From Leifsonia shinshuensis (GTDB lineage Bacteria; Actinomycetota; Actinomycetes; Actinomycetales; Microbacteriaceae), in NCBI RefSeq assembly GCF_013410375.1, contig NZ_JACCFL010000001.1, positions 1,302,001 through 1,366,000 on the forward strand: a DNA stretch of 64,000 bases, in the 5' to 3' direction. Under the pieces are notes generated by a model. It was not told the origin of the DNA and searched no databases. It was given only the letters and a program-made list of their open reading frames with translations. The position numbers and the translations under genes were made by a program. Below, piece by piece: positions 3,351 through 52,826 of this stretch (positions are counted from its first letter, which is position 1; each line of letters begins with the position of its first letter).

Positions 3351-6848
<3,498 letters not shown>

Positions 6849-6898: not shown

Positions 6899-10774
<3,876 letters not shown>

Positions 10775-48242: not shown

Positions 48243-49073
48243 ATGGCTTTCCGACGGTCGTTCTACAAGTCGCCCGCCCAGCTCCGACTGATGGTCGCGC
48301 CAGGACGGGCGGCGGCCGCGTCCCTGGACGCCGTCTCCGCGGCGGTCGCGGCGGGCGTCTCGACGCTTGAGCTCGACCGGATCGCGGAGGCCGCGATCGA
48401 GGCGGCCGGCGGGAAATCCAACTTCAAGCTGGAGGCCGGCTACCACCACACGATCTGCGCGTCGGTCAACGACGAGGTCGTGCACGGCATCCCCGGCTCG
48501 CGCATCCTGCAGCCGGGTGACATCCTCTCGGTGGACAGCGGCGCCATCCAGGAGGGCTGGAACGGCGACGCGGCGCGCACGTTCGTGCTTCCCGACCCCG
48601 CGAACCCGGAGCGCGTCGCCGAGCGGCAGAAGCTCTCGGAGGTCACCGAGCAGTCGCTCTGGCACGGGATCGCCCGGCTCGCGACCGCCCGCCATCTCAA
48701 CGAGGTGGGCGAGGCGATCGAGGACCACATCCTGTCGCAGGGCGACTACGGCATCCTCACCGACTACATCGGCCACGGGATCGGCCGCCGCATGCACGAG
48801 GAGCCGCCGGTGTTCAACTACCGGGTGCGCTCGAAGGGCCCCGAGGTGCGCCCGGGACTCGTGGTCGCGATCGAGCCGATGGTCGTCCTGGGGGAGCAAG
48901 ACACCTACGTGAAGGACGACGGCTGGACCGTCGCCACCGAGGACGGTTCGGCCGCGGCGCACTGGGAGCACAGCGTGGCGGTGCACGCCGACGGCATCTG
49001 GGTGCTGACGGCCCTCGACGGCGGGGCCGCGGGGCTCGCGCCGTTCGGAATCACGCCGACGCCCATCCGTTAG
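48243..49073 (+). CDS. map: Methionine aminopeptidase, type I
   Basis: 276 residues, removing initiator Met from nascent proteins. The two-metal ligands are recognisable: D in SVDSGAIQEGWNGDAAR (two Asp), H in GHGIGRRMHEEP, E in VAIEPM and E in HWEHSV. Last gene of the spc group. No terminator follows; the adjacent DNA changes abruptly to the more A/T-rich island. Confidence 0.96.
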   Translation: MAFRRSFYKSPAQLRLMVAPGRAAAASLDAVSAAVAAGVSTLELDRIAEAAIEAAGGKSNFKLEAGYHHTICASVNDEVVHGIPGSRILQPGDILSVDSGAIQEGWNGDAARTFVLPDPANPERVAERQKLSEVTEQSLWHGIARLATARHLNEVGEAIEDHILSQGDYGILTDYIGHGIGRRMHEEPPVFNYRVRSKGPEVRPGLVVAIEPMVVLGEQDTYVKDDGWTVATEDGSAAAHWEHSVAVHADGIWVLTALDGGAAGLAPFGITPTPIR

Positions 49074-49112
49074 GTGTGGATAACTGCTCCTGTATTCGAG
49101 TCTGCGATACCG

Positions 49113-49138
49113 TTGCAGCATCGCATGATGCCATGCAA
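49113..49138. promoter_or_regulatory. Inverted repeat in front of the ParB-like gene
   Basis: ttgca/tgcaa arms enclose gcatc-GCAT-gatgc, a 26-base near-palindrome with a 2-base bulge, ending 15 bases before the TTG start. The place and size suit an operator for autoregulation, as with controller proteins of restriction systems, or an mRNA hairpin next to the ribosome site. Confidence 0.45.
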
Positions 49139-49152
49139 TTGAGGACGGTAAA

Positions 49153-50250
49153 TTGAAGGAACTGACTACTGGCGTCTCCCTTAGGGACTTGGTTCTTGAC
49201 CCTGAGAACCCTCGGTTGCCCGAGAACCTCTTAGGCGCGTCCCAGGACGAGATCCTTCAATACCTTTTCGACTTTGACTCGCTCGACGAGATCGCTGAGT
49301 CCGTTTCACTAAACGGCTACTTCCCGAACGAACACGTGATTGTCCTTCCTCCGATGACGGACGGTCGACGGACGGTCGTGGAGGGCAATCGCCGGGTGGC
49401 GGCATTAAAGATTCTCGCGAACGATGACGTAGCTCAAGCCCTTCAACTTACGTTCGAGAACCTGCCTCGACTCGAAGGCGAGTTCGTCGTGCCCGCCTAC
49501 GAAGTAGCCGATCGGGACGAATTGGCTGCGTACCTCGGCTTCAGGCATATAAACGGAATTAAGACGTGGTCCGCCGGCGCAAAGGCGCGGTTCGTTTGGA
49601 ACCGAGTACATGCGGCGGTCGGCGGCGGAGACTCAGATCCGTTCTTCTCGGTTGGACGCACCATCGGAAGTAATTCTCGCGGTGTGCGATCTTCCTACCT
49701 TGCCTACGGTGTCCTAAAGACGGCAGAGGATCGCTTAGCGGATCCAAGTTCGGCTAAGTATGTATTGCGCGAACGTTTTGGCGTCTGGCTGCGGCTGCTG
49801 GGCACCAGGAACGTGCCTGGCTACGTAGGGTTGGATCTCGATGCGCGATCGTTTGATGAAGTTCAAAGGAACATCGATTCACTCGACTATTCCGCGGTGG
49901 GGGAGGTGCTCGCTGACCTGACCCCTTCCTTGGACGGCACGCCGGCTGTCCTTGCGGACAGCCGCTCTGTCACCACATACAGCGATGTGCTAGGAAATAG
50001 TCGCGCGCACAAGGTACTTCGTGACTCCGGAAAACTGGCGATCGCCGAATCCGTATTTGTACAGTCGAGCTTCTCGCGGCAGCTTGGAGAACTCGTCGGT
50101 CAAGCCAATGTGTTATTCGAGATGCTCGCTACCCAGGAGTCCGCATCTGAGTCGGACGTGCTGAGTTCTGAGCGGCTGTTTTCGGTGGCTCGGCTGATTC
50201 GGGCATCAGTCCATTCGCTCAAGGAAGGCGACATTGACGAGACCGACTAG
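49153..50250 (+). CDS. ParB/Srx-domain protein, first gene of a modification island
   Basis: 365 residues. The N-terminal ~120 residues match the ParB/sulfiredoxin fold: VLDPENPRLPE, then SLDEIAESVSLNGYFPNEHVIVLP and the motif VVEGNRRVAALKIL. There is no obvious ParB helix-turn-helix and no partner parA, so a chromosome-segregation role is unlikely. EGNRR-type ParB-fold proteins often lie in phage, plasmid and DNA-modification loci. The start is TTG at 49153 after gagga. It overlaps the next gene by 17 bases. Base composition and codon use (TTA, ATA, AAT and CTT codons) differ from the flanking ribosomal genes, a sign of transfer. Biochemical role unknown. Confidence 0.7.
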   Translation: MKELTTGVSLRDLVLDPENPRLPENLLGASQDEILQYLFDFDSLDEIAESVSLNGYFPNEHVIVLPPMTDGRRTVVEGNRRVAALKILANDDVAQALQLTFENLPRLEGEFVVPAYEVADRDELAAYLGFRHINGIKTWSAGAKARFVWNRVHAAVGGGDSDPFFSVGRTIGSNSRGVRSSYLAYGVLKTAEDRLADPSSAKYVLRERFGVWLRLLGTRNVPGYVGLDLDARSFDEVQRNIDSLDYSAVGEVLADLTPSLDGTPAVLADSRSVTTYSDVLGNSRAHKVLRDSGKLAIAESVFVQSSFSRQLGELVGQANVLFEMLATQESASESDVLSSERLFSVARLIRASVHSLKEGDIDETD

Positions 50251-51154
50251 CGGCACCATCGGGCTCGCGATTTCGGCCTATGGTGAGCGGGCGTCAGCAA
50301 GCGCGTTTGCCGACTATCTCGAAATCTGCGCGCTGAAACGCCGAAAACTATCACTGGCAAGCCTTGACGAAGCGATACGCGATCACGGTTGGTCCTCAGA
50401 CTATCGAAGTTTAGATATTGCCAGCGATGACGACGAACTACCGGTCTCCTGGGCCGATAGTTTGATGTCGTTGGTGCGCGAGCGTGAGTCAGCGCTTCGA
50501 GGTCGGTACCCATTCAAAATCAGCGGTGCATACGTCACGCTCAAGGCGTCTCCATCAGCGGCCTCACGGCAGTATGTGAGGCTCCTTCGGCTGACAGCCG
50601 CGCACGCTTACGGCTTCCGAGGTCGCCCATCGACCGATGTTGTTTTCGAGCGTTTGGTTTCCGCGGCGCTTCAAAAGCGCGGATTGCCATCAGCGCCGAT
50701 GGGTACCGGCTCGCGAAGTAACAAGACATTTGTGAACGCCCTTGAGACGGCTGGAAAGGCTGTGGGTCTCGACGTCTCACGCGACCCCTATCCTCGGCAG
50801 CGATTTGCTCGAGATGGAAAAGTTGACGCGCTCTCTGCAATTACGTGGAGCGATGGCCGTCCCGGTCAATTCACGTGGTTGACCCAGGCGACAGTCGGCG
50901 AAAGTTCCACTTGGATATCCAAAATGAAGGAGCCGGACCCAGCCATTTGGGCGGGCTATCTGAACGAAACGTTGGCCCCACAAATCATTCTTGCGATTCC
51001 GCACCATGTCGAACCCACTCACCTCGCATACCTTCTTGCGACGCGGGTTGGAACTGTTGCGGATCGACTACGGCTTGCAGGTTATCTACCAGACGAAGTC
51101 GAAGGCGAAGATGCCATCAGAGAGTGGTTTGAAGCTGCTCAAGTCGAGCTCTAA
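50234..51154 (+). CDS. Unrecognised protein with nuclease-like motifs, candidate restriction enzyme
   Basis: 306 residues, TTG start at 50234 after AAGGAAGG, overlapping the ParB-like gene by 17 bases in another frame. No named family is certain. In the second half, VFERLV (E139) precedes KVDALSAITWSDGRPGQFTW (D198, D207), then WLTQATVG (Q218) and WISKMKE (K230). This order of acidic, Gln and Lys residues recalls PD-(D/E)XK nucleases of the Q-variant (Mrr-like), but the catalytic triad is not exact. AIPHHVEPTHL follows. It lies beside a convergent cytosine methyltransferase, the expected place for a cognate endonuclease. The role is inferred from context and weak motifs only. Confidence 0.5.
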   Translation: MTRPTSGTIGLAISAYGERASASAFADYLEICALKRRKLSLASLDEAIRDHGWSSDYRSLDIASDDDELPVSWADSLMSLVRERESALRGRYPFKISGAYVTLKASPSAASRQYVRLLRLTAAHAYGFRGRPSTDVVFERLVSAALQKRGLPSAPMGTGSRSNKTFVNALETAGKAVGLDVSRDPYPRQRFARDGKVDALSAITWSDGRPGQFTWLTQATVGESSTWISKMKEPDPAIWAGYLNETLAPQIILAIPHHVEPTHLAYLLATRVGTVADRLRLAGYLPDEVEGEDAIREWFEAAQVEL

Positions 51155-52337
51155 TCCGGTCGCTTCTTTCCTGAGCGCCTGGGCCCAAACCAGTGCCGGG
51201 ATGATCATCCTTAGCGCCCAGCAGATGCAAATATGCAACAGGTACCTGGGCAACCGGCGACGATGTTGCTGGACGTTTGGATCGAACAACCTCAAGGGTT
51301 GGCGAGCCGAGGATAGGGGAACCTGAGATAGTCTGCGCGGCAGCGCGCGCCATGACCTCCGCCAGCAACGAGGGCGTAGCGTTGCCAATGAGTTTGACCT
51401 GGGCCCGATAATCCCCAGGCAAAGTCCACTCATCTGGAAAGGTCTGAAGCCGCATCATCTCTCGCGAAGAAAGCGGGCGGTTGTCCCAGTGGAAAGGTCC
51501 GGTCGATGGGCCGGGCGATGCTGCCAAAGTCCACGACGGACGGTCCTTTGCCAGCTTCAGAAGAAAGTTCCAGTACTTGGTACGGTATCCAAACAATTCT
51601 TCGCCGCCCCCGCGAGCGGTGTGCCATTGGTAGTTCCACCCTTCCGGAATCGAGGGTAGAAGGCCGGCCCATCGGCCTTGCGGTGTTGGCGGATCATGTT
51701 CTTGCAGATCATGCAGAGCATCCCAAGCTGTAGCTGGAGCCGCACTGTGCGTTAACGTTGGCCAACTCCACGAGCCAGAGTCTTTCCTCACAAGCACAAC
51801 AATCACACGCTTGCGGTTCTGCGGAACGCCGTAATCCGCCGCATTTATGTTCCGAAAGTCAATGTTGTAGTGAACGTCGCGTTTGTCGGCCAACGTCTCA
51901 AGGCGCTGCTTAATGAAAGGAAGCGCAGCGCCGCTTCCCTGGACAAAGCCAAGCACATTCTCGAGGATCACGACCTTGGGGGCCAACGTCTCGATCACAT
52001 CGAGGGTCCCATGGACGGTCTTCGCGCGTACGTCGTCCATTCCCAGTCGGCCGCCTGACCACTGGGCTGCGGTTGAGAAAGGTTGACATGGCGGACCGCC
52101 GACCACGAGGTCAAGATCGCCATAGCCCAGTGAGAGAGATTCGGGTGTCAGGGATTTGGCGACTGACAGCACATCGCCATCTCCGAGAGAAGGCCACCAC
52201 GGACGATTCAGGTGAAGCGCTGCGCGGGCACGCGGGTCAAGCTCGACGCTTCCGACGATCTCGAAGCCGGCTCGCTCAACGCCGATGTCCATCCCTCCAG
52301 CGCCACTGAACAATGACAGTGCCTTAAGCGCGGACAT
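51117..52337 (-). CDS. DNA (cytosine-5) methyltransferase
   Basis: 406 residues with the m5C-methyltransferase motifs in order: I FSGAGGMD (10-17), IV GGPPCQPFS with catalytic C84 (80-88), VI ENV (126-128), VIII QNRKRV (173-178), then a target-recognition stretch of about 130 residues and X GNATPSLLAEV. About 65 residues follow motif X, more than in M.HhaI-type enzymes. It probably protects DNA from the nuclease encoded alongside; the target sequence cannot be read off. Convergent with the 306-residue gene, overlapping its 3' end by 38 bases. No strong Shine-Dalgarno precedes the ATG; translation may be leaderless or weak. Confidence 0.93.
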   Translation of the reverse strand: MSALKALSLFSGAGGMDIGVERAGFEIVGSVELDPRARAALHLNRPWWPSLGDGDVLSVAKSLTPESLSLGYGDLDLVVGGPPCQPFSTAAQWSGGRLGMDDVRAKTVHGTLDVIETLAPKVVILENVLGFVQGSGAALPFIKQRLETLADKRDVHYNIDFRNINAADYGVPQNRKRVIVVLVRKDSGSWSWPTLTHSAAPATAWDALHDLQEHDPPTPQGRWAGLLPSIPEGWNYQWHTARGGGEELFGYRTKYWNFLLKLAKDRPSWTLAASPGPSTGPFHWDNRPLSSREMMRLQTFPDEWTLPGDYRAQVKLIGNATPSLLAEVMARAAAQTISGSPILGSPTLEVVRSKRPATSSPVAQVPVAYLHLLGAKDDHPGTGLGPGAQERSDRIRARLEQLQTTL

Positions 52338-52484
52338 GGGATTTCATCGAGTAAAGACTCCTAATCGAACGCCGCTTCGGTGGGCGACAATCAAGGGCGG
52401 GTAAGTTTGAACAGTTTACGAGCTCAACGGCGCAATTGCGAGCTGGCCTGTTCGCTCACAGCGGGAGCAGATGATGGCCCAGAA
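52338..52484. other. Island edge without genes
   Basis: Between the methyltransferase start and the infA promoter I see no gene. The first ~110 bases are A/T-rich (aagtttgaacagtttacgag) and on the minus strand should hold the methyltransferase promoter (TTTACT near 52351-52356 is one -10 candidate). Composition returns to host type around 52450. Confidence 0.4.
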
Positions 52485-52604: not shown

Positions 52605-52826
52605 ATGGCCAAAAAAGACGGTGTCATCGAGATCGAAGGATCTGTGATCGAGGCGCTCCCCAACGCGATGTTCCGCGTCGAGCTCACCAACGGTCACAAG
52701 GTTCTTGCCCACATCTCCGGCAAGATGCGCCAGCACTACATCCGCATCCTCCCCGAGGACCGCGTGATCGTGGAGCTGAGCCCCTACGATCTGACCCGCG
52801 GCCGGATCGTCTACCGCTACAAGTAA
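52605..52826 (+). CDS. infA: Translation initiation factor IF-1
   Basis: 73 residues, an OB-fold protein that binds the ribosomal A site during initiation. Core strands: [20 protein letters not shown], then [13 protein letters not shown] and [22 protein letters not shown] with gtgagg upstream. First gene of the infA-rpmJ-rpsM-rpsK group, 77 bases ahead of rpmJ. Confidence 0.97.

Follow-up and report, generated by a model that had tools for sequence, protein, structure and literature searches.

Restriction-modification (RM) types are usually defined by their subunits and cofactors, and a ParB/KorB-like protein lies outside the classical type II definition. ParB-type proteins are sliding clamps that help to separate chromosomes. 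It has been reported that ParB-type folds have differing nucleoside triphosphate (NTP) preferences (PMC12704722), that PD-lambda-5 is a prophage-borne "compacted RM+Abi system" (Vassallo et al., PMC9519451), and that P2-like phages bear an anti-phage hotspot, with old-tin among the tested systems (Rousset et al., PMC9122126). P2-like phages with other 5-methylcytosine (m5C) cassettes have also been published, such as KL3 with EcoRII-C. In this work, we describe a three-gene island of 3.4 kb between map and infA of Leifsonia shinshuensis (GCF_013410375.1, contig NZ_JACCFL010000001.1, positions 1,302,001 to 1,366,000; this whole stretch of 64,000 nucleotides is called the window below). Its genes encode a ParB/KorB-type protein (open reading frame 1, ORF1), a predicted nuclease (ORF2) and a C5-cytosine DNA methyltransferase, and together they are probably a complete, horizontally acquired RM cassette whose restriction half is a ParB-like clamp plus a nuclease.

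ORF1 resembles ParB, KorB and Noc in having nucleotide boxes I-III followed by a helix-turn-helix, in the same order. This was seen in a motif alignment with 30 ParB sequences, chosen for their GERR motif, in which E77-G-N-R-R81 of ORF1 is aligned to MGERR of ParB, and it bears out the ParB-domain protein named in the first-pass annotation, which had been made from the letters of the window without database searches. The closest structural match of ORF1 is the repressor KorB. It differs from these relatives in its own C-terminal helical region, in the lack of ParA in the cassette, and in its nuclease and methyltransferase partners; there is no ParA among the three genes, and annotation shows none in the stretches of phage, plasmid and E. 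coli DNA that were opened, no search by ParA profile having been made. ORF1 matches neither ParB_N nor any other Pfam family at E<=1, the NCBIfam model parB_part reaches E 0.032, which is under the family cut-off, and a PDB sequence search with the ORF1 profile returned one match only (E 0.2, to a designed protein). The strongest ParB_N match of the host sits outside the island, at C1:355167. Of the ORF1 homologues matched (230), 120 were listed and 46 entered alignment A3. The database copy of ORF1, P0010 (344 aa), begins 21 residues late and is without the conserved LDPENPR motif; TTG at 49153, preceded by GAGGA, is a better-fitting start than that of P0010 (window 49153-49215).

In PADLOC, the N-terminal part of ORF1 matched PD-Lambda-5_A (residues 3-148 against positions 3-159 of the 466-position profile, E 1e-17, not full-length) and, more weakly, PDC-M38A. 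A ParB-like N-terminal domain is common to ORF1 and PD-lambda-5, but the match takes in only about 150 N-terminal residues of ORF1, against profiles mostly 428-592 positions long, and the island nuclease and methyltransferase are separate genes. The type IV system GmrSD likewise combines a ParB-fold domain with a nuclease; the island differs from it in having a protein of PD-(D/E)XK fold where GmrSD has HNH, a helix-turn-helix, and a methyltransferase presumably protecting self DNA. No HNH domain was found in ORF1 or ORF2, neither of which matches a Pfam family at E<=1, and the ORF2 model has a restriction-endonuclease fold.

The structure model of ORF2 (predicted local distance difference test score, 88) adopts a PD-(D/E)XK nuclease fold, and this predicted fold would supply the restriction half that was missing from the earlier account of the locus. 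Foldseek gave FokI and MspJI as top matches of the model, and the VIA rows were topped by BspD6I and MspJI. D198, Q218 and K230 are near-invariant across ORF2 homologues and likely form the active site, while E139 is less conserved. ORF2 itself had no match in Pfam, PADLOC or NCBIfam. Pfam gave scattered weak matches, one member each, on 30 members of the ORF2 alignment A2 (best E 0.073), and nothing on ten distant homologues except E 0.083 in L068; PADLOC on the same ten and NCBIfam on six of them returned no match. On these scans, membership of ORF2 in a listed family is rejected. The ORF2 profile matched no sequence in the PDB, and neither a viral scan with ORF2 alone nor a plasmid search with ORF2 gave anything useful.

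The methyltransferase identified by the first-pass annotation stands, with a PF00145 match and motifs in place (GGPPCQ at 80, ENV at 126, QNRKR at 173), and it is the host's only m5C methyltransferase, the sole PF00145 match of the genome. It is convergent with ORF2, with a tail-to-tail overlap of 38 bases. PADLOC matched it to generic profiles, DruM and DrmMII among them; the large partner genes of Druantia and DISARM are not in the three-gene island. In W-phi, 12474II and Pseudomonas phage D14A, homologues of ORF1 and ORF2 face an m5C methyltransferase as in the window. The W-phi enzyme aligned to M.HaeIII over 4-307, nearly its full length (E 1.6e-48), and a GGCC-like target site, GGCC being the HaeIII target, is a lead for it from sequence comparison. 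The window enzyme aligned over 6-217 and weakly over 287-332, with nothing more; a HaeIII site for it is rejected on this partial alignment, and its target probably differs from that of the W-phi enzyme.

Features of the island and its flanks (window positions; strand + is the forward strand)
Feature	Position	Strand	Basis or remark
ORF1, ParB/KorB-type protein, 365 aa, TTG start	49153..50250	+	
ORF1 residues 1-133, ParB-type nucleotide-binding domain	49153..49551	+	boxes I-III
ORF1 residues 163-194, helix-turn-helix predicted to read DNA	49639..49734	+	
ORF2, predicted PD-(D/E)XK nuclease, 306 aa, TTG start	50234..51154	+	structure model
ORF2 residues 134-276, predicted nuclease core	50633..51061	+	D198, Q218, K230
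C5-cytosine DNA methyltransferase, 406 aa	51117..52337	-	PF00145 E 6.1e-49, motifs
Island, apparently horizontally acquired, map-infA junction	49074..52446	.	empty junctions in congeners, alignment breakpoints, GC3 (G+C at third codon positions)
map, left flank outside island	48243..49073	+	
infA, right flank outside island	52605..52826	+	

The trio was found in unrelated, distant bacteria and in phages. In 25 of 27 genome loci, and in 79 of 80 viral ones, the gene next downstream of the ORF1 homologue is a homologue of ORF2, and a nuclease-first search recovered three new loci of the family with ORF1 upstream in each. The loci were picked with patterns containing stretches of ORF1 similar to EGNRR, RHIxG or RFGVW, so that conservation of these stretches within them is partly due to selection. 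The viral loci are the best 80 of 139 and fall into 58 clusters at 90% ORF1 identity (46 with an m5C methyltransferase, 10 with a D12 N6-adenine methyltransferase and 2 with none). The nuclease frames of L043 and L054 start upstream, and one locus scan missed both while another shows them; L053 and L059, both from one metagenome-assembled genome, are possibly the halves of a single locus.

Moreover, ORF1 and ORF2 vary together. Across 23 m5C triplets (truncated L036 and L059 dropped, L043 and L054 not entered), the identities of ORF1 and ORF2 were correlated at 0.86, a value reached by 0 of 2000 permutations, whereas those of ORF1 and ORF2 with the methyltransferase were correlated at 0.49 and 0.41 (2 and 4 of 2000 permutations). 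W-phi and 12474 share 98% identity in the methyltransferase but only 32% and 25% in ORF1 and ORF2, which argues that ORF1-ORF2 is one exchangeable unit; between 12474 and strain 005008, the pair is 61% and 58% identical and the methyltransferase only 76%. These discordant identities indicate that pair and methyltransferase have recombined as units. The two divergent pairs of W-phi and 12474 beside a nearly identical methyltransferase are the remaining puzzle: either one site is read by different means, or the modification is sensed otherwise. A quick tree built from 90 ORF1 homologues (88 classed) shows a single change in the class of methyltransferase, and frequent swapping of m5C and N6-adenine enzymes is rejected; m5C and D12 instead look like two deep subtypes.

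This joint inheritance bears on the alternative that survives best, namely an ordinary type II system in which target recognition and cleavage are both the work of ORF2 alone, with ORF1 as a KorB-like transcriptional repressor of the cassette. C proteins regulate some type II systems, ORF1 is structurally nearest to a repressor and has a helix-turn-helix, and the overlap of ORF1 and ORF2 also suits an autoregulated operon. However, the co-variation of ORF1 and ORF2 is much closer than that of either protein with the methyltransferase, the two are kept together when the methyltransferase differs, and ORF1 also turns up in searches begun from the nuclease, all of which make a mere regulator unlikely. 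The loss of ORF1 through IS1 in E. coli GF47, GF50 and GF54 is uninformative either way. From gene overlap, adjacency and co-variation, we strongly infer that ORF1 belongs to the cutting half.

The methyltransferase is part of the same association. One lies within 2.5 kb in 24 of 27 genome loci (21 m5C, 3 D12) and within about 4 kb in 76 of 80 viral loci (66 m5C, 10 D12), by profiles built from loci of the same set; two viral loci counted as m5C, L204 one of them, become D12 by nearest gene, and the D12 gene of L057 and the m5C gene of L043 are fragments. Of those 76 viral loci, 65 share the layout of the window, with the methyltransferase downstream on the opposite strand. It is hard to reconcile this proximity and constant layout with a pair that is an accessory effector, for example an NTP-sensing or abortive one, merely housed beside methyltransferases or defence genes, an explanation we regard as quite improbable. 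A leftover partition or maintenance module of a mobile element beside an orphan methyltransferase, the two without a joint function, is suggested by the ParB homology of ORF1 but has next to nothing in its favour otherwise, given the lack of ParA among the three genes and in the annotation of the stretches opened, the recurrence of the trio in unrelated genomes and phages, and linkage counts that already contradict it. Genes for the mismatch-repair endonuclease Vsr lie beside two cassettes (L104:7335-7745, strand -; L079:4715-5239, strand -), as expected for repair of m5C deamination.

In L071, an unverified phage contig, two ParB-nuclease pairs stand face-to-face (4468-6661, strand +; 7207-9307, strand -), and a methyltransferase was not recognised in its 9.9 kb. 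In Curtobacterium sp. MCBA15_008, a gene for a 375-aa protein that has no Pfam match separates the pair from the m5C gene (L034:9953-11080). A 536-aa open reading frame with a ParB-like part is convergent with a D12-type methyltransferase in G002, a genome of the same genus (L080:4585-7096), and the two are perhaps a PD-lambda-5-like system. The ParB pair in L041, L060, L069 and L100 adjoins genes for an m5C methyltransferase plus a protein of restriction-endonuclease fold.

The prophage setting adds to this picture. Between orf91 and its cohesive end, P2 carries tin and old, which according to their annotation block T-even phages and lambda, and the W-phi trio (mth, gp96 and gp98) occupies the equivalent interval. 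Among 5426 complete E. coli genomes, 103 have the W-phi form and 36 the 12474 form, with the same counts whether searched as the ORF1-ORF2 pair or as the full trio, which makes 139 genomes overall, E. coli W and KO11FL included; these genomes are not mutually independent. At a lower identity threshold, relatives of the methyltransferase occur in 225 of the 5426 genomes, and in the 60-80% identity set (86 genomes) the pair was present in all five genomes opened. In all five genomes with a natural break that were opened, the break falls in the pair and the methyltransferase is annotated as intact. The genetic logic is that of RM: the methyltransferase is retained, the cutting half can be lost, and a mobile slot serves for defence.

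With regard to the host, the distance between map and infA is 145-193 bases in all 27 congeners and 3535 bases in L. shinshuensis, in agreement with the earlier assumption that they are normally neighbours. None of the 27 congeners has the island genes at this junction, so these are rejected as normal content of the region, and among the 28 genomes of the genus (host counted) ORF1 occurs in the host only, besides a weak partial match in G002. Alignment to the close congeners L005 and L006 bounds the insert at about 49074 and about 52446 and shows that the final 160 bases 5' of infA are the ancestral leader; the right edge first drawn at 52484 was thus about 40 bases too far. The GC3 of ORF1, ORF2 and the methyltransferase is 0.64, 0.56 and 0.60, against 0.85-0.96 for secY, map, infA, rpsM and rpoA, and G+C content is 0.56-0.60 within the island against 0.63-0.72 upstream. 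The different codon use claimed at first is therefore real, although the TTA, ATA and AAT codons said to be frequent are present rather than frequent (4/1/4 in ORF1, 1/2/0 in ORF2 and 1/1/3 in the methyltransferase, with one ATA in the five neighbours together). The 17-base overlap of ORF1 and ORF2 is exact, and the methyltransferase converges on both. An integrase gene is not among the island's genes, and the island looks like an acquisition by the host lineage. As to a translocase of the type I or type III kind, only three genes lie between map and infA and none matches a helicase; neither a helicase nor a GHKL ATPase was found in the window cassette.

The island is like type II systems in that an m5C methyltransferase with intact motifs faces a protein of predicted PD-(D/E)XK fold, and in that the cassette is mobile with its modification and restriction halves adjacent. 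It differs from them by a constant ParB/KorB-like third gene that varies with the nuclease, and a ParB partner with NTP boxes accompanies the cassette nuclease nearly always. We infer restriction activity, a physical complex of ORF1 and ORF2, and protection by the methyltransferase. The m5C methyltransferase would mark the host's own copies of the target sequence, ORF2 would be the cutting enzyme, and ORF1, completing the restriction complex, would locate unmodified target DNA and there deliver or activate ORF2, most likely as a nucleotide-gated clamp, by analogy with ParB biology (PMC12704722) and from its kept boxes. NTP gating and sliding of ORF1 are more speculative. It is possible, but only tentatively proposed on the analogy with ParB, that ORF1 loads via its helix-turn-helix on unmethylated target, then clamps the DNA in response to CTP or a different NTP, perhaps slides, and either brings the PD-(D/E)XK nuclease or sets it off.

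The proposal of the first-pass annotation, a defence cassette with the ParB-fold protein as an obligate component, finds support in linkage, gene overlap and joint inheritance, all read from sequence comparisons. Neither of the two observations named beforehand as fatal to it came about: the genes are no conserved fixture of map-infA loci in the genus, and elsewhere they stand in close linkage with DNA methyltransferases. Its suggestion of an under-described type also fares well, with the nuclease outside Pfam, NCBIfam and PADLOC. The trio is undescribed in the accessible parts of PMC12704722, PMC9519451, PMC9122126, PMC2292703, PMC12839542, PMC10853773, PMC5512222, PMC3091744, PMC6471742 and PMC7556043, and the word ParB is absent from the main text of PMC9122126; no description was found in searches of open-access literature, supplements not covered, so that an entry in REBASE or a preprint is possible.

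We consider that this conserved cassette, unnamed in the family libraries used, is best filed as an RM variant with a ParB-like subunit, since an NTP-binding subunit of this kind as the constant partner of a nuclease fits no usual RM slot. Its presence in E. coli, including W and KO11FL, makes it testable at once in laboratory strains. The trio also offers a biological context for the differing NTP preferences of ParB-type folds. If the proposed reading is true, a ParB-type clamp, and not a helicase motor, would drive restriction in a family with m5C and N6-methyladenine subtypes that is often borne by prophages.

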